Shown here piece by piece: positions 3,841 through 15,682 of a DNA stretch of 42,688 nucleotides. A model generated the notes under the pieces. The model was not told where the DNA came from. It ran no database searches and was given only the letters and a program-made list of their open reading frames with translations. Position 1 is the stretch's first letter; each line of letters opens with the position of its first letter. The DNA lies in assembly GCA_021776565.1 (NCBI GenBank), contig JAJFFQ010000028.1, positions 1 to 42,688 on the forward strand. Reading direction: 5' to 3'. Source of the stretch: Robiginitomaculum sp. Lineage in GTDB: Bacteria > Pseudomonadota > Alphaproteobacteria > Caulobacterales > Maricaulaceae. The translations under genes and the position numbers were made by a program.

Positions 3841-4617
3841 TTATGATTTTGGGTATGCGGCGTCACTTATTGCTTTCAAAACTTGGAATTGTTTTTCAAA
3901 ATATACGATCAATTTTTCACTTCTTGATAAAAACACATGTGGGTGAATATTGTCGTCATCAAAAGCCCAGCCGTATAATACTTCTATTGGGATGTTGTTT
4001 TTATAAAAAATAATGAAATTTGTAAAAGGAATTGCATTACTTTTCAATACCCACGCACGAAAATCTTTAGACCCACCTGCATTGTTTATTAATTTTTCCA
4101 TATCTGTAATACGGCCTTTAATATTTTCACTAAAAATTTCATGATAAGTTCCACCATCTGAAACTATATTTGCTACTTTTCTATTCCACTCTTCGATTAG
4201 TTCTGTTGCATAAAATCGATTAAGCTTCATATTTTTAGACGGTATTCGTATTGTTGTATTAAGTACTTTATCTGTAATATCTAATATATCATTCGCATAT
4301 TTATGTGCAGCAGCAGTGTTTTCAAAAATTTCACCTTCTATTTCCGAGCGTATAATTGTTAATAAGGCATTATTTTTGTTTTCACAAACCGTTTCAATTT
4401 TTTCTATAGCTGAATCATTTCTGAATTTAGTTGCTATACGCTCTCCAATTACGAGAAATAACATAGACAACCCTAAAGAAGCCGCCAGTATTGCTGTTGG
4501 GTCATCTGGATATGCACCAAATACTGATGTTCGCATTGAGCAAATATATGCAACTACGCCAACTATTCCAGTAACGATTATCGCTATTATATCTTTCCTA
4601 TTGGATTTAATATTCAT
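3841..4617 (-). CDS. AT-rich hypothetical membrane protein with two N-terminal TM segments
   Basis: 258 residues; I do not recognise the family. The N-terminus has two hydrophobic segments (about residues 10-28 and 40-60) joined by a short loop. A largely helical soluble region follows, and the C-terminal 80 residues mix aromatic and charged positions (KNNIPIEVLYGWAFDDD, then an EKQF-rich helix). That layout, a two-helix anchor plus a cytosolic domain, is seen in many orphan and some defence-associated proteins, but no catalytic motif is clear. The start has a good GAGGG site six bases upstream. Gene and flanks are strikingly AT-rich compared with every neighbour, and codons ending in A or T dominate, which suggests horizontal acquisition. 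It stands alone between the ABC-F gene and the electron-transfer operon. Confidence 0.75.
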   Translation of the reverse strand: MNIKSNRKDIIAIIVTGIVGVVAYICSMRTSVFGAYPDDPTAILAASLGLSMLFLVIGERIATKFRNDSAIEKIETVCENKNNALLTIIRSEIEGEIFENTAAAHKYANDILDITDKVLNTTIRIPSKNMKLNRFYATELIEEWNRKVANIVSDGGTYHEIFSENIKGRITDMEKLINNAGGSKDFRAWVLKSNAIPFTNFIIFYKNNIPIEVLYGWAFDDDNIHPHVFLSRSEKLIVYFEKQFQVLKAISDAAYPKS

Positions 4618-4843: not shown

Positions 4844-5596
4844 TTAAACGCTCTGAATAGCCGCTGGATCAACGCGAAACTGCACCAGATCATCACGGCG
4901 CACCAGACGCCCGCTCACCCGCACCGGCTCGCCGACCAGCGGCAGAATTGCTTCGCGCAACGGTTCTCCCTTTGGCCCGGTCAGCACAAAAACCGCGCGT
5001 TTGCCGTTTTTGTCCCTGGCCAGAAACCAGGGCGTGCCGCCCATGCGAATGCACAGGGACGCGCAGGCCTTGTGGGTTTTTCCGGAACCGGGGCGCATGG
5101 CACCACTCCAGCATTTGGCATCCAGAATTTCACCGCTTAACGCCGCCCTGCCCAGATAATCCTCGGTAACGGCAGGGATGTTTTGCACATTTTGTGTCTC
5201 TCCGATCCAGTCGGCATTTTCCACCACGGCCAATAACCTGTGACGCCCGCGCGCGATAACCGAGCCACGCACCCAGACGGATTTTCCCTCCAATAGTTCC
5301 AGTTGCGCACTAACACCGCATTTACTGGAGCAAACAAGCGAAACGCTGCGCATCTGCCCATCCAGTACTGCCGTGCGCAAGACAGGATAGGGCGATTGCT
5401 CAACCACGCCTTCAATTACGATGGTTTTTTGCTGATCCCAATTGCCGCTTCCCCATGCCTGTTGATGCACGGCAAGTTTGGCACCGGCAAGGGCGGCAGC
5501 AAATAATCCGGCACCGCCGGCCAGCACCATGGCGCGCCGGTCAGGCTTATGCAGCCTGTCATGATAGCCAACGAAGAAATTATTTTTTCTGGTCAT
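4844..5596 (-). CDS. Membrane-anchored Cys-containing protein of the Rieske/cytochrome locus
   Basis: 250 residues, function unknown. A hydrophobic stretch at about residues 22-40 is probably a signal anchor. The exported part has two small beta-rich regions that read like OB-type folds (VWVRGSVIARGRHRLL and PVRVSGRLVRRDDLVQFRV). Between them lies a conserved-looking block, GEILDAKCW then PGSGKTHKACASLC, with three cysteines and one histidine; a further CSSKC pair comes earlier. I have the impression that this block recurs in alphaproteobacterial proteins beside Rieske/ferric-reductase genes, but it has no assigned function that I know. The start overlaps the end of the Rieske-fusion gene by 17 bp, so translation is probably coupled. 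The cysteines suggest metal binding or redox activity, which is inference. Confidence 0.8.
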   Translation of the reverse strand: MTRKNNFFVGYHDRLHKPDRRAMVLAGGAGLFAAALAGAKLAVHQQAWGSGNWDQQKTIVIEGVVEQSPYPVLRTAVLDGQMRSVSLVCSSKCGVSAQLELLEGKSVWVRGSVIARGRHRLLAVVENADWIGETQNVQNIPAVTEDYLGRAALSGEILDAKCWSGAMRPGSGKTHKACASLCIRMGGTPWFLARDKNGKRAVFVLTGPKGEPLREAILPLVGEPVRVSGRLVRRDDLVQFRVDPAAIQSV

Positions 5597-6647
5597 GAGC
5601 TTTGGTCTCGATCAAGGCCGGAGGGGTTTGGGTTCCGGGGGGTAGCGCATCGGGGTGAACATAAAGCACACCATTGTCGATCTGCACCCGATAGGTGGAA
5701 ATTTTTTCGGCAAATGGCGGCGGCGAGCGCCCGTCTTCTGGCCGATATTGCCAGCCATGCCAGGGGCAAGTGATACAGCCATCAATAATGCGCCCCTCGC
5801 CCAATGGCCCGTTCTGGTGCGCGCAGATATTGGTTACCGCACTGATCTTGCCATCATAGCGAAACACTGCAATGCGTTCCCCTTTTGCTGTGCGGATTGT
5901 TTTGGCGCGGTTTTCGGGGATACGTTGCGGCGCGCCAAGATTGATCCAGCCATCCAGAGATGCCTTGACCTTTCTGTCTGTCACCCGCCCGGTAAAGGCT
6001 GAAAATCCGTGCAGCCCGGCAATCAGGCAAAACATCCCGATCACACTGGCCGGATACAGCCCGGCCTTTTCCCCCTGCACAACCCCTAACATGATATGCA
6101 CCACCAATAATCCATAGGCAGCATAGACGCTCATATGGATACGTTTCCATACGCTCGGCCCCAATGCCGCTTGCCAGAAATCATGACTGCTAACGGCCAG
6201 AACAGCCAAAAGAAAAAGCGCAATAAGGCCCAGGCTTTCAAAGGGAAACCCGGAAATGGACGTAAAGCGTGCATTGGAAACAAACAGCGCCACAACCGGA
6301 TTAAGCGCGGAAAATCCCTGATACCAGAGCAAGGCCAACCCGGCATGAACCAACGCCAGTAAAAAGCATAAAACCCCCATATGACGCCGATTGTAGAGCA
6401 GCGGCTTGAACCGGGCACTCAGGCGCGCCAGTGGCCCTATGGCCAGGATAACATTCAGCAACAGGAATGACGCCGCCCCAAAGGCACGTACTAATACCTG
6501 AACCATGGTCAGCGACTGCCCCTCTATGCGCGAACCCATGGTCATAAGAACAAAACTGGCGATAAAAAATGTAACTCCCGCCAGAACGACTGCGTCATAA
6601 CGCCATTTGAAGCGGTTCCACTGCACGGCAGTATATCCATGGCTCAT
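5580..6647 (-). CDS. Ferric-reductase-like membrane domain fused to a Rieske [2Fe-2S] domain
   Basis: 355 residues. The N-terminal 220 form about six transmembrane helices resembling the ferric reductase/MsrQ heme-b domain, with candidate heme-ligand histidines H89, H101, H171 and H184. The C-terminal domain carries a complete Rieske motif: C275-x-H277 and C294-x2-H297 within a CPWHGW context, the type found in ferredoxins and oxygenase subunits. The protein could pass electrons between the [2Fe-2S] centre and membrane b-hemes. It overlaps its neighbours on both sides (4 bp with 6644-7021, 17 bp with 4844-5596), so the three are one operon. A heme-b/Rieske fusion next to a c-type cytochrome suggests a transmembrane electron-transfer module of unknown substrate. 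Confidence 0.88.
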   Translation of the reverse strand: MSHGYTAVQWNRFKWRYDAVVLAGVTFFIASFVLMTMGSRIEGQSLTMVQVLVRAFGAASFLLLNVILAIGPLARLSARFKPLLYNRRHMGVLCFLLALVHAGLALLWYQGFSALNPVVALFVSNARFTSISGFPFESLGLIALFLLAVLAVSSHDFWQAALGPSVWKRIHMSVYAAYGLLVVHIMLGVVQGEKAGLYPASVIGMFCLIAGLHGFSAFTGRVTDRKVKASLDGWINLGAPQRIPENRAKTIRTAKGERIAVFRYDGKISAVTNICAHQNGPLGEGRIIDGCITCPWHGWQYRPEDGRSPPPFAEKISTYRVQIDNGVLYVHPDALPPGTQTPPALIETKAHDQKK

Positions 6648-7021
6648 GACACTAGTTCCTCAAAAATAACGCCCCTGGGCAGGGCATCATTAAGCGGCTC
6701 GACGGGGCGCAGCATCAACGCCATCATGATAGCCAGCGCCACCAGTGGCACCAGAAACACCCAGAGGCGCGCATGAACACCGCGTAAGGCCCGCGGCGGG
6801 GCGGGGCGATGTGTTCTGCCTTTAATCAGTCGCACCAAAAGCACAGGCCAAAGCAGGATCGCCCCTGGCAAAATCATCAAACGAAACCCGAACCCGGCAC
6901 CCCGCGCCGCCGGAACCATCTGTGCCGCACCAATCGTCACAAAATACAAGCCATAAGCTATACCCAAGAGCAGATAAAACCCAAGCACACTGGCCAATGC
7001 TGTTGCCAGAGCAAGGCTCAT
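6644..7021 (-). CDS. Small membrane protein of the Rieske/cytochrome locus
   Basis: 125 residues with three likely transmembrane segments (about residues 5-30, 45-63 and 85-104) separated by a basic loop, IKGRTHRPAPPRALRG. No family is recognised. Its stop overlaps the start of the Rieske fusion in an ATGA arrangement, so the two are translationally coupled. It probably serves as a structural or assembly subunit of the same membrane complex; this rests only on operon position. Confidence 0.75.
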   Translation of the reverse strand: MSLALATALASVLGFYLLLGIAYGLYFVTIGAAQMVPAARGAGFGFRLMILPGAILLWPVLLVRLIKGRTHRPAPPRALRGVHARLWVFLVPLVALAIMMALMLRPVEPLNDALPRGVIFEELVS

Positions 7022-7133
7022 GGCCTGACCCCAAAACCGGACAGCAAAGCGATGGACGCTGTAAAAGCGAATTTCACAAGCCAGAACATGAAATTATCTT
7101 AGCGTGATTCGTGCGAGGGTTTAGAGTGCAAAC

Positions 7134-7889
7134 TCAATCAGTATTTAGTGAACCTTCGGCCCTTTTTACTAATGAGGCAATAAAGGTGTTTTCCGGCTCC
7201 AGCCGTGCCGCGGTCTGATAGGCAGCCAATGCTTCTGCAAATTTTCCCACCTGCATAAGTGAATTGCCCCAGGCCATAAAAACCAGTCCATCCTCAGGAT
7301 TAAGTTCTCGGTTCAGGTCATGAAGTGCAAAAGCAAACTCGGAACTGCCTTCTTTCATTATGTTTTCAGCATAATTACCCAGTGTGAATGGGGAAAAATC
7401 ATAGGTATGGGTGCCGTAATATGTTTCCCGGATTTCACGATAATGAGTCACCGCACCAATGGCATCATTTTTTGTCTTATACTGATCCAGAACATCTTGA
7501 ATCAACAACGGGCGGTTCTGTCCACGATGGCAGGTCATACAGCGCACAGCTACGGCATCACTGGCCTTAACACCCTCTATATCAGTCACATGACGATTGA
7601 TGATAGCCGTCATTTTTAACATATCACGGGCAATGCGTTTTTGTTTTTTTTCATCCAGACTAAAGTCCCATTCGGACAAGGGTGCCCCGGGTTCTGCCAC
7701 ATGGCATCCGGAACATCTGATTCCCGTGGCAAATGAAAAACCTCTCATGATTTCGCGCAACTCACCCGACGATATATCCTTGGGCAAAACTTTCAGATTT
7801 TTGGGATCAGAAAATGGACTTTTTGCCTGTTGCGCCTGCGCAATTGCATAGCCAGACAAGAACAATACCCCGATGAAAAACACCACCCG
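7134..7889 (-). CDS. Diheme c-type cytochrome (reaction-centre cytochrome family) with TPR tail
   Basis: 251 residues from the ATG at 7889, which has an AGGAGGG site seven bases upstream; a longer frame to 7967 lacks one. A signal peptide covers about residues 1-20. Two heme-c motifs are visible, C60-SG-C63-H64 and C118-MT-C121-H122. The surrounding pattern (VLPKDISSGELREIMRGFSF, then AARDM-like KRIARDMLKM and INRHV) matches the reaction-centre cytochrome C subunit family (PF02276), here with two hemes instead of four. The C-terminus has TPR-like helices (AWGNSLMQVGKFAEALAAYQ). It is periplasmic and probably exchanges electrons with the membrane subunits encoded downstream; the gap to the next gene is 112 bp. 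Confidence 0.85.
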   Translation of the reverse strand, partial: RVVFFIGVLFLSGYAIAQAQQAKSPFSDPKNLKVLPKDISSGELREIMRGFSFATGIRCSGCHVAEPGAPLSEWDFSLDEKKQKRIARDMLKMTAIINRHVTDIEGVKASDAVAVRCMTCHRGQNRPLLIQDVLDQYKTKNDAIGAVTHYREIRETYYGTHTYDFSPFTLGNYAENIMKEGSSEFAFALHDLNRELNPEDGLVFMAWGNSLMQVGKFAEALAAYQTAARLEPENTFIASLVKRAEGSLNTD

Positions 7890-8121
7890 CATAATAACCC
7901 TCCTAATTCCACGCACTTTTGAGTTTGGATTCTGGTGGCAGGTTAGCAAATACACTTGCGGCGACAATAAACAGGCGATTAAATATTGGTAATCTGCTAA
8001 CGTGTAAATTCAACGCTTTCACAGCACAACAGCAACAAAACGATGTGAAGCATTGACGAAATATCTTGTCTGTAACGCCAGAACGCCCTATTCCCGCATT
8101 ACAAAATAAAAAGAACACATT
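7890..8121. promoter_or_regulatory. Divergent promoter region between cytochrome and RND operons
   Basis: 232 bp between divergently transcribed genes, so it must hold both promoters. A TTGACG hexamer at 8053-8058 is a possible -35 for the RND operon, but no good -10 follows at the right spacing. GTTAGCA near 7945 and TGCTAAC near 7995 form a loose inverted pair that might bind a regulator. No small gene seen. Confidence 0.35.
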
Positions 8122-13783: not shown

Positions 13784-15016
13784 TCAGGAGGAAATAGCTG
13801 CCGCCATAATTTCTTTCATCGGCACGGTAAGGTCAGCAAGTGCAGCCCGATCCGGGTTCGTGCCTTTGGCGATCATCATTCGGGCCGCCATGTATTCTGC
13901 CGGGGCATTGACGGCATCACAGGCAATGAGTACGCCCCCCTTGAAATAAAATACGGCAAAGGCATTTGCACTCATATCACCGCGCAGACTTGTCTCATCA
14001 TGGCCTTCTGAAAGCCCGGCGATTTGTAGCTTTATGTCATACTGATCCGACCAGAACCACGGAACCTGATTGTATGGTTTTTCGCGCCCAACAATGGCTC
14101 CGGCAGCGGTTTTGGCCTGTTCCAGCGCGTTATGAACAGATTCGAGCCGAAGCGAGCGACCATAAATGGTGCTGGGGTGACGGGTTACATCGCCGATAGC
14201 ATAAATGGCAGCATCTTCGGTGCGGCACAACGCATCTACAATAATACCGCTATCACAGGCCAGTCCGGCATTCAGCGCCAGTTCTGCATTGGCAACAAGA
14301 CCAATGCCCACAAGCGCAATATCAGCGCCCAAAAGCGTACCATCGTTAAGGCACACACCGGTCAGTTTATTTGTGCCTTCAAAGCCCTGCGCCAAGGCAC
14401 CAGTGATAATCTCAACACCGTGTTGGCGATGTATACGCTCGAAAAAGGTAGAAATTTCTGTGCCCGCAACCCTTGCCAACACGCGGGTCTCGGCCTCCAG
14501 AACAGTGACATCCAGCCCCCGTTTGCGGGCCGTTGCCGCAACTTCAAGACCAATATAACCGCCGCCGACAATCACCAGTTTTCGCCCGGTCTTCATGGCA
14601 GTATTGAGCGCATTTGCGTCATCAAGAGTACGCAGGACATGCACACCGGCAAGGTCTTCACCAGGGCAGTTCATACGCCGCGCCCGCCCGCCAGTGGCCA
14701 AAACCAGATGGGTGTAGGGTATCCGGGTGCCGTCATCACAGACAATATGCGCGGTTGTGCGATCAATGCTGGTCACACGACGACCCGTCATTACAGTGAT
14801 ATTATAGTCCGCCCAAAACCCTTTGGGTTTGAACAGCACATCGTCCAATCCGGCATCACCGGCAAGCCAGGCCTTGGACAGGGGCGGACGCTGATAAGGC
14901 AGGTAATTTTCCTCGCCAATCAGGGTAATCGACCCCTCATAACCAAACTGGCGCAAACTGGTCGCGATCTGGCCTGCACCATGCCCCGCACCAACAATAA
15001 TAACACCTGACTTCAT
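13784..15016 (-). CDS. FAD-dependent NAD(P)H:ferredoxin reductase-like oxidoreductase
   Basis: 410 residues. It belongs to the pyridine-nucleotide-disulfide family in the branch of putidaredoxin/rhodocoxin reductases, which pass electrons from NAD(P)H to a [2Fe-2S] ferredoxin for oxygenases. The FAD-binding motif VGAGHGAGQ is at residues 8-16, with PYQRPPLSK after it. A second dinucleotide motif, VIVGGGYIGLEVAA, is near 150, and YAIGDVTRH is the second FAD contact. The C-terminal reductase domain has VPWFWSDQYDIKLQIAG. No ferredoxin or P450 gene is adjacent, so its partner is unknown; the Rieske gene at 5580-6647 is the only [2Fe-2S] protein in the window. It has its own start signals and diverges from the cytochrome at 15170. 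Confidence 0.9.
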   Translation of the reverse strand: MKSGVIIVGAGHGAGQIATSLRQFGYEGSITLIGEENYLPYQRPPLSKAWLAGDAGLDDVLFKPKGFWADYNITVMTGRRVTSIDRTTAHIVCDDGTRIPYTHLVLATGGRARRMNCPGEDLAGVHVLRTLDDANALNTAMKTGRKLVIVGGGYIGLEVAATARKRGLDVTVLEAETRVLARVAGTEISTFFERIHRQHGVEIITGALAQGFEGTNKLTGVCLNDGTLLGADIALVGIGLVANAELALNAGLACDSGIIVDALCRTEDAAIYAIGDVTRHPSTIYGRSLRLESVHNALEQAKTAAGAIVGREKPYNQVPWFWSDQYDIKLQIAGLSEGHDETSLRGDMSANAFAVFYFKGGVLIACDAVNAPAEYMAARMMIAKGTNPDRAALADLTVPMKEIMAAAISS

Positions 15017-15169: not shown

Positions 15170-15682
15170 ATGAGTCGAAATTTCTCTTGCATATCCATCA
15201 GTCTTCTTGTGGTTGCCCTTGCTGCTTGCGGGCCAAAATCCAGCCCAGAAAACACCGTTGAGGACGCAATTCCGGCGCCTTTCCCAGACACAATTGAAGC
15301 GCAGCTCCCGAAGGTACAGGACGTGGTTGTTGATGATCTGCCCCTTAACGACCAACCTGGCGTGCCCGACCTCACCAATGGCAAACGCCAATATGCCAAA
15401 TGCAAAATTTGTCATACGCTTATGCAAGGCGAACGTAACAAAATTGGCCCAAACCTTTATGGTGTTTTAGGCCGCCCAGCGGCCAGCCTCCCGGGGTTCA
15501 GGTATTCTGCAGCCTTAAAAGCATCAGGTATCATTTGGGATGAAAACACACTGAGCCAATGGGTACAAAATCCACGCCAAACCGTACCAAAAACCAGCAT
15601 GACTTTTGTCGGCGTTCGCGATGATAAATCCCGCCGCGACCTGTTGGCTTATTTGCTAAAACAAACCTCACCAGTAGAATAA
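15170..15682 (+). CDS. Lipoprotein class I cytochrome c
   Basis: 170 residues. A lipoprotein signal peptide ends in LAAC with lipid attachment at C20. A Pro- and Asp-rich linker leads to a cytochrome c2-type domain: C78-KI-C81-H82 binds the heme, KIGPNLYGVLGR and PGFRYSAALK are standard class I landmarks, and M144 in PKTSMTF is the likely sixth ligand. It is therefore a membrane-tethered periplasmic electron carrier, similar in principle to membrane-bound cyt cy/c552 types that feed terminal oxidases. It diverges from the flavoprotein gene and is convergent with the barrel protein, with 6 bp between stops. Confidence 0.9.
   Translation: MSRNFSCISISLLVVALAACGPKSSPENTVEDAIPAPFPDTIEAQLPKVQDVVVDDLPLNDQPGVPDLTNGKRQYAKCKICHTLMQGERNKIGPNLYGVLGRPAASLPGFRYSAALKASGIIWDENTLSQWVQNPRQTVPKTSMTFVGVRDDKSRRDLLAYLLKQTSPVE

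Follow-up and report, generated by a model that had tools for sequence, protein, structure and literature searches.

A conserved gene cassette pairing a ferric reductase–Rieske fusion with a predicted periplasmic OB-fold protein in Robiginitomaculum sp. and other bacteria

Proteins with a ferric reductase domain (FRD) carry electrons across membranes, as MsrQ does for MsrP according to the accessible part of PMC5676040. Here we analyse a locus of Robiginitomaculum sp. on a stretch of 42,688 nucleotides (GenBank assembly GCA_021776565.1, contig JAJFFQ010000028.1; hereafter the window), in which three genes encode a small membrane protein (smallTM), a fusion of a ferric reductase domain with a Rieske domain (FRDR) and a membrane-anchored OB-fold protein with conserved cysteines (OBcys). 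The locus resembles the MsrPQ system (YedYZ, the periplasmic methionine sulfoxide reductase) in its six-helix haem domain, in three His positions and in the dedicated extracytoplasmic partner encoded adjacent to it. In FRDR, however, a Rieske domain is fused at the C-terminus and there are additional conserved His residues, and the partner shows no molybdoenzyme family: OBcys occupies the place of an adjacent MsrP. A separate pair on contig C31 of the window genome, named by eye from the sequences, is what we take to be MsrP–MsrQ-like.

Other described systems share single features with the cassette. The NADPH oxidases (NOX), with SpNOX, and the ferric reductases likewise have a transmembrane haem domain, through which they move electrons outward; FRDR has no flavin adenine dinucleotide (FAD)/NAD(P)H module, and Arg87 replaces its first canonical His. 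The FRD–Rieske combination itself is listed in PMC3591440 (Zhang et al. 2013), the accessible part of which gives it as an architecture only, without neighbourhood, partner or function. The flavinylation systems of PMC8238504 likewise have MsrQ-like membrane proteins with extracytosolic partners, but these partners are, in the accessible part of that paper, flavin mononucleotide (FMN)-binding or ApbE proteins, none of which is among the annotated neighbour families of the cassette. The dioxygenase Rieske ferredoxins CarAc and BphA3 share the Rieske fold and cluster motif, while in FRDR this domain is fused to a membrane haem protein. No description of the three-gene cassette was found among the titles and abstract openings listed in searches of open-licence papers. 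The original prediction, made from the sequence of this DNA, was a four-gene membrane electron-transfer locus matching no characterised pathway; both statements are supported for the three-gene core, and the fourth gene, a cytochrome (cytRC), is not a member. Within the reach of our searches, the cassette is an uncharacterised transmembrane redox unit; its mechanism is of a known kind, and its partner protein represents a new family.

Conservation of the smallTM–FRDR–OBcys cassette

The three genes form a conserved unit beyond chance. When a collection of genomes from 84,980 species was scanned for FRDR, 132 related loci were confirmed, the best 80 of which were analysed (hereafter the 80 loci). 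smallTM lies at most 1.6 kb upstream of FRDR in 79 of these, the exception being a locus (L051) whose contig begins 168 bp before FRDR, and OBcys lies at most 1.5 kb downstream in 79, with a different exception (L100). The gene order is smallTM–(f4)–FRDR–OBcys, where the bracketed f4 is a separate cassette gene of other phyla, located after smallTM and before FRDR. The 78 tree rows, window included, carry nine phylum labels (as given in the sequence records; four rows are unlabelled). A mirror-tree comparison of 78 rows (FastTree) gave a correlation of r 0.89 between the FRDR and OBcys distances, a value that none of 999 permutations reached. In the window, smallTM shares 4 bp with FRDR, and FRDR shares 17 bp with OBcys; cytRC lies without overlap 112 bp away, on the upstream side of smallTM and on the same strand. 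All four genes lie on the minus strand in the order predicted, and the three that overlap are those of the cassette.

The families also co-occur at closer range. Among 99 relatives, FRDR with both of its parts is present in 23 genomes, and OBcys is present in the identical 23, side by side with it in each; if matches to the Rieske part or the haem domain only are included, the FRDR count becomes 88/99. In one of the 23 (G038) the match to the two FRDR parts is split over two contigs, and a weak OBcys match in G031 (E 9e-4), which would have made 24, was excluded. A second OBcys copy in G086 (contig C82) stops 9 bp short of the edge of its contig, so that any FRDR next to it would be out of view. 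In the planctomycete class of G100, the Phycisphaerae metagenome-assembled genome (MAG) of locus L091, FRDR (E <= 1e-40) is found in 14 of 150 genomes and OBcys (E <= 1e-10) in the identical 14, adjacent or fused. A search of 146 genomes of the cyanobacterial phylum recovered OBcys in one, the centre genome itself, and the cassette is therefore patchy there.

FRDR and OBcys are moreover encoded as single polypeptides in two Nitrospirales MAGs (L090, L098), in a Singulisphaera MAG (L106) and in a planctomycete (G313, 636 aa). A model of the L106 fusion, based on an alignment (A5) adopted after tests of row composition, reached a predicted local distance difference test score (pLDDT) of 87.3 and a predicted TM-score (pTM) of 0.59. 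It had been proposed that finding the families independently of each other would speak against a common locus; FRDR, OBcys and smallTM travel together, and the cytochrome was found with them in this genome only. For cytRC as a fourth member of the unit, the association is no more than chance.

Domain architecture of the three proteins

The ferric reductase/Rieske fusion had been recognised correctly. FRDR matches the Pfam families Ferric_reduct (E 6.7e-13) and Rieske (E 1.7e-16), and it belongs to the ferric reductase superfamily PF01794 (49.2 bits vs a gathering cut-off of 28). It falls well below the MsrQ equivalog model NF003831 (49.1 bits vs a curated cut-off of 130). In the 81 rows inspected for single residues, His89, His101, His155, His171 and His184 are invariant, and His213 is present in 80/81 rows; a further alignment (A3) held the window sequence and 56 of the 80 FRDR sequences. 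His101, His171 and His184 align with the His residues of MsrQ from the same genome and correspond to the three conserved His of MsrQ, one on transmembrane helix 3 and two on helix 5. Arg87 stands 14 residues before His101, at the position of the first His of NOX; an Arg in place of this first canonical His is the YedZ/STEAP pattern according to the accessible part of PMC3591440. NOX and long-form ferric reductases have four His and carry FAD and NAD(P)H domains on the chain; FRDR departs from both features, with Arg in place of the first His and with Rieske-type families, Ferric_reduct and one sub-threshold family as its only matches.

The Rieske ligands of FRDR are Cys275-His277-Cys294-His297. 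Respiratory Rieske proteins of the bc1 and b6f complexes have a motif with a disulfide-forming Cys pair; the CAHQ...CPWHGW motif of FRDR has no such pair. The domain instead resembles dioxygenase ferredoxins such as CarAc, with structural TMt values up to 0.87-0.89. Most of the matching solved structures, and the best, are such ferredoxins, and two chains are named as the b6f iron–sulfur subunit (8hn2, 5cxm). From the Lys plus Arg content of the loops, whose boundaries we set ourselves, the Rieske domain is predicted to be cytoplasmic, as are the N-terminus and loops 2-3 and 4-5.

The protein originally described as anchored and carrying a cysteine motif, OBcys, indeed has one predicted transmembrane helix and Cys motifs. 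Its AlphaFold2 model (pLDDT 88) shows an anchor helix at residues 17-44 followed by two OB folds. In an alignment (A2) of the window sequence with 66 of 74 related open reading frames, Cys162, Met167, His175, Cys178 and Cys182 are invariant over all 67 rows. The second OB fold carries an insertion that contains these residues: His175, Cys178 and Cys182 lie on a predicted helix (173-184), and Cys162 and Met167 directly precede it. In the model this spacing would suit a metal site, for which a [2Fe-2S] cluster and copper were considered. The Lys plus Arg content, again with boundaries set by us, points to an N-in/C-out topology, so that OBcys is probably periplasmic. A twin-arginine motif occurs near the anchor in 36 of the 67 members; twin-arginine translocation is therefore at most lineage-specific. 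OBcys had no Pfam or NCBIfam family above cut-off and no solved relatives by sequence, and its Foldseek matches were OB folds of a generic kind, with no E value of 0.001 or lower. Weak matches to DUF5818 and DUF4131, each in one of the 67 members, were not used; DUF5818 was found in no paper of the open-licence literature.

smallTM (125 aa) matched no Pfam or NCBIfam family. Its profile, which like that of OBcys was built in part from the loci then searched, matched its weakest locus at E 3.3e-17 and none of 2016 control frames; the underlying alignment held the window sequence and 25 others, and 54 of the 55 loci outside it were still matched. The predicted small three-helix protein proved to be a two-helix core plus a third helix, and this helix aligns with the N-terminal one of f4 (hhalign probability 93.5, from a single pairwise comparison). 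By profile, an f4-type sequence is found in 26/80 loci at E <= 1e-6 and in 40/80 at E <= 1e-3.

A possible electron path and its alternatives

The cassette, its co-occurrence, the natural fusions and the predicted folds and topology are results of computation, and from them we infer the cofactors, the direction of the electrons, the donor and the acceptor. On balance, we consider it probable that the cassette is a transmembrane electron conduit of the MsrQ/ferric reductase kind, leading from the cytoplasm through the Rieske domain and haem to OBcys. A cytoplasmic reductant would reduce the C-terminal [2Fe-2S] domain of FRDR, and the electron would then cross the membrane through the b-haem or b-haems of the ferric reductase domain and reach the anchored tandem OB-fold protein in the periplasm. 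The invariant Cys/Met/His/Cys/Cys site of OBcys may hold a metal or a redox centre, making OBcys a reductase or a carrier, and smallTM, with f4 in some phyla, may be a structural subunit. Electrons could be supplied by a dioxygenase-type NADH:ferredoxin reductase and, in certain genomes, by two proteins encoded beside the cassette, f3 and f2.

Both of these neighbours are Rieske fusions. f2 joins a Rieske domain to an FMN-type glutamate-synthase domain; apart from the cassette genes, no neighbour is commoner (29/80 loci). A full-length f2 is present in 13 cassette carriers among the 99 relatives; its Rieske motif is intact in 12 of these and broken in G021, and the f2 frame of G011 has a stop; Rieske f2 also occurs in three relatives without the cassette (G019, G042 and G006, the last copy cut by a contig end). 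A version with a double CDGSH motif is found in one carrier and six non-carriers, and the two versions differ in their association with the cassette (12+3 vs 1+6; Fisher p 0.007). In G016 the motif of the f2 copy reads by eye as a variant, CDGAH. At L120 (G028, 5526-7058) and L121-L126, glutamate-synthase-like proteins carry an N-terminal [2Fe-2S] module of the CDGSH type rather than a Rieske one, six of the seven in cassette-less relatives; a CDGSH/Glu_synthase combination is mentioned in the accessible part of PMC5859297. f3 joins a Rieske domain to a thiamine pyrophosphate (TPP) enzyme in 23/80 loci (for example at L050:3447-5471 and in relatives of that protein), and in 10 carriers and three non-carriers (G095, G028, G019) among the 99 relatives. 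Among NCBIfam models it scores highest, though below cut-off, with pyruvate oxidase and the PoxB type, and no paper on a fusion of this type was found in the open-licence literature. PoxB feeds electrons to the membrane quinone. The Rieske domain of FRDR may tentatively be regarded as a cytoplasmic docking port, at which the soluble enzymes f3 and f2 would exchange electrons Rieske-to-Rieske with FRDR and so drive OBcys with its three Cys, His and Met.

Several observations weigh against the conduit and its donors. The window genome, which is 96% complete, yielded neither f3 nor a Rieske-type f2 when searched, and they are therefore not general donors; both are optional, and both also occur in relatives that lack the cassette. 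The ferredoxin reductase lies 6-8 kb from FRDR in the window and in G017, G010, G004 and G012, but NADH:ferredoxin reductase is near-universal (96 of the 99 relatives) and is therefore not specific. The L100 locus has FRDR, and no OBcys was found within 1.5 kb of it. Stops interrupt some MAG frames (FRDR of G009 and G301, OBcys of G011). Foldseek with the fused FRDR::OBcys model gave Rieske-type proteins among the 50 matches listed, so that the haem domain of FRDR received no confirmation from the fold search. The case for the metal site of OBcys consists of residue invariance and helix spacing, and the function as a whole is a prediction, as is the direction of electron flow.

The direction could also be the reverse. 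OBcys would then oxidise a periplasmic substrate or metal, and FRDR would carry the electrons inward to its Rieske domain, feeding cytoplasmic Rieske-fused enzymes such as f2, which would be a consumer of electrons and is the top non-cassette neighbour. We consider this unlikely, given that electrons move outward in the characterised relatives MsrQ and NOX (accessible parts of PMC5676040 and PMC3591440) and that f3, the other Rieske fusion, resembles an electron-yielding pyruvate oxidase. Another explanation would be that the cassette is an assembly or quality-control factor, delivering for example metal or haem to envelope oxidases. CcmE is an OB-fold chaperone, and OBcys, a membrane-anchored protein with the same type of fold that bears a His besides its three invariant Cys, could be its counterpart, with FRDR keeping its thiols reduced. 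However, the annotated recurrent neighbour families, f3 aside, include no cytochrome or oxidase (single neighbours were not all annotated), and the fold matches of OBcys are the generic ones described above; this role appears rather improbable.

The adjoining cytochrome and other neighbouring genes

cytRC is the two-haem, reaction-centre-type cytochrome with a TPR tail that had been predicted: its two CxxCH motifs are CSGCH and CMTCH, it matches CytoC_RC at E 8.6e-9, and the TPR lies at its C-terminus. Its ATG lies three nucleotides beyond the end at 7889 assigned originally (Table 1). It matches the non-photosynthetic model NF033196 (95.9 bits vs a cut-off of 70) and not the PufC model NF040706 (42.2 bits vs 150), and Photo_RC, of the photosynthetic reaction centre, was not found in the window's own genome.

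cytRC was sought in the cassette loci and in alphaproteobacteria. It was absent by tblastn from 84 cassette loci (the best 80 and four short loci, possibly repeats), and no full-length relative was found in the 98 relatives other than its own genome. Six partial matches among the relatives (E 1e-6 to 9e-4) fall on or near the TPR part in five cases and on residues 32-180 in G089. At E <= 1e-10, its own genome was the only one of 289 in its class to carry it, the 288 others being without. Three near relatives (L031, L033, L036) have a gap of 219-248 bp separating smallTM from the RND adaptor gene; in L032, L034, L035 and L037, thus in four of the eight Robiginitomaculum loci checked, this slot holds Rieske f2, and in the window cytRC. 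The GC content at third codon positions (GC3) of cytRC is 0.435 vs 0.587-0.606 for the cassette genes, only a modest sign, because another cytochrome of the window has 0.468.

cytRC was therefore rejected as a cassette member, having been found neither in the loci nor in full in the other genomes searched and standing in a variable slot; it is a separate, local gene. The predicted four-gene pathway ending at periplasmic c-haems, which the position of cytRC on the same strand and in the slot elsewhere used by f2 might favour, is very improbable and, as a general pathway, already refuted, the conserved partner being OBcys. A local role of cytRC with the cassette may exist, because its slot is used elsewhere by another redox gene.

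Table 1. Coordinates of the cassette genes and of other features of the window
Feature	Position	Strand	Description
OBcys	4844-5596	minus	N-terminal membrane anchor and two OB folds; invariant Cys/Met/His/Cys/Cys; predicted periplasmic
FRDR	5580-6647	minus	Six-helix MsrQ-like ferric reductase domain and C-terminal dioxygenase-ferredoxin-type Rieske domain
smallTM	6644-7021	minus	125-aa membrane protein; two-helix core with FR, PG and WP motifs, and a third helix
cytRC	7134-7892	minus	Two-haem c-type cytochrome with TPR tail; adjoins the conserved cassette, not a member
Ferredoxin--NAD(+) reductase	13784-15016	minus	Dioxygenase-type, AndAa/HcaD/BphA4-like
Cytochrome	15170-15682	plus	c-550-like, single haem; N-terminus lipoprotein-like (read by eye)
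Open reading frame	3841-4617	minus	258 aa; GC 0.318 vs 0.517 for the window; no solid family; possibly foreign

Two metabolic links were considered and set aside. EgtB/EgtD-like genes (our own reading) stand beside f2/f3 in the cassette-less G028 and suggested a link to ergothioneine, but neither was found in the 80 loci; a link to ornithine lipids, suggested by an OlsB-like gene (f14) in 9/80 loci and an OlsA-like gene in L069, is too restricted. Downstream of OBcys in L069, L094, L105 and L109, the OlsB-like f14, a DinB-like gene (f6) and a VTT-domain gene (f7) recur, sometimes with a TANGO2 gene (f8). A glutathione-synthetase-like neighbour (f18) is found in 7/80 loci, in cyanobacteria and Nitrospirales.

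To conclude, the ferric reductase superfamily has here an uncharacterised branch that comes with its own dedicated partner; the cassette is spread patchily over nine phylum labels, and OBcys is a probable periplasmic redox protein outside the known families. The natural fusions from Singulisphaera, Nitrospirales and a planctomycete offer constructs of a single chain with which the question can be tested directly. If the docking of f3 and f2 at the Rieske domain were true, the cassette would represent a new class of membrane redox system with a new family of periplasmic metalloproteins.

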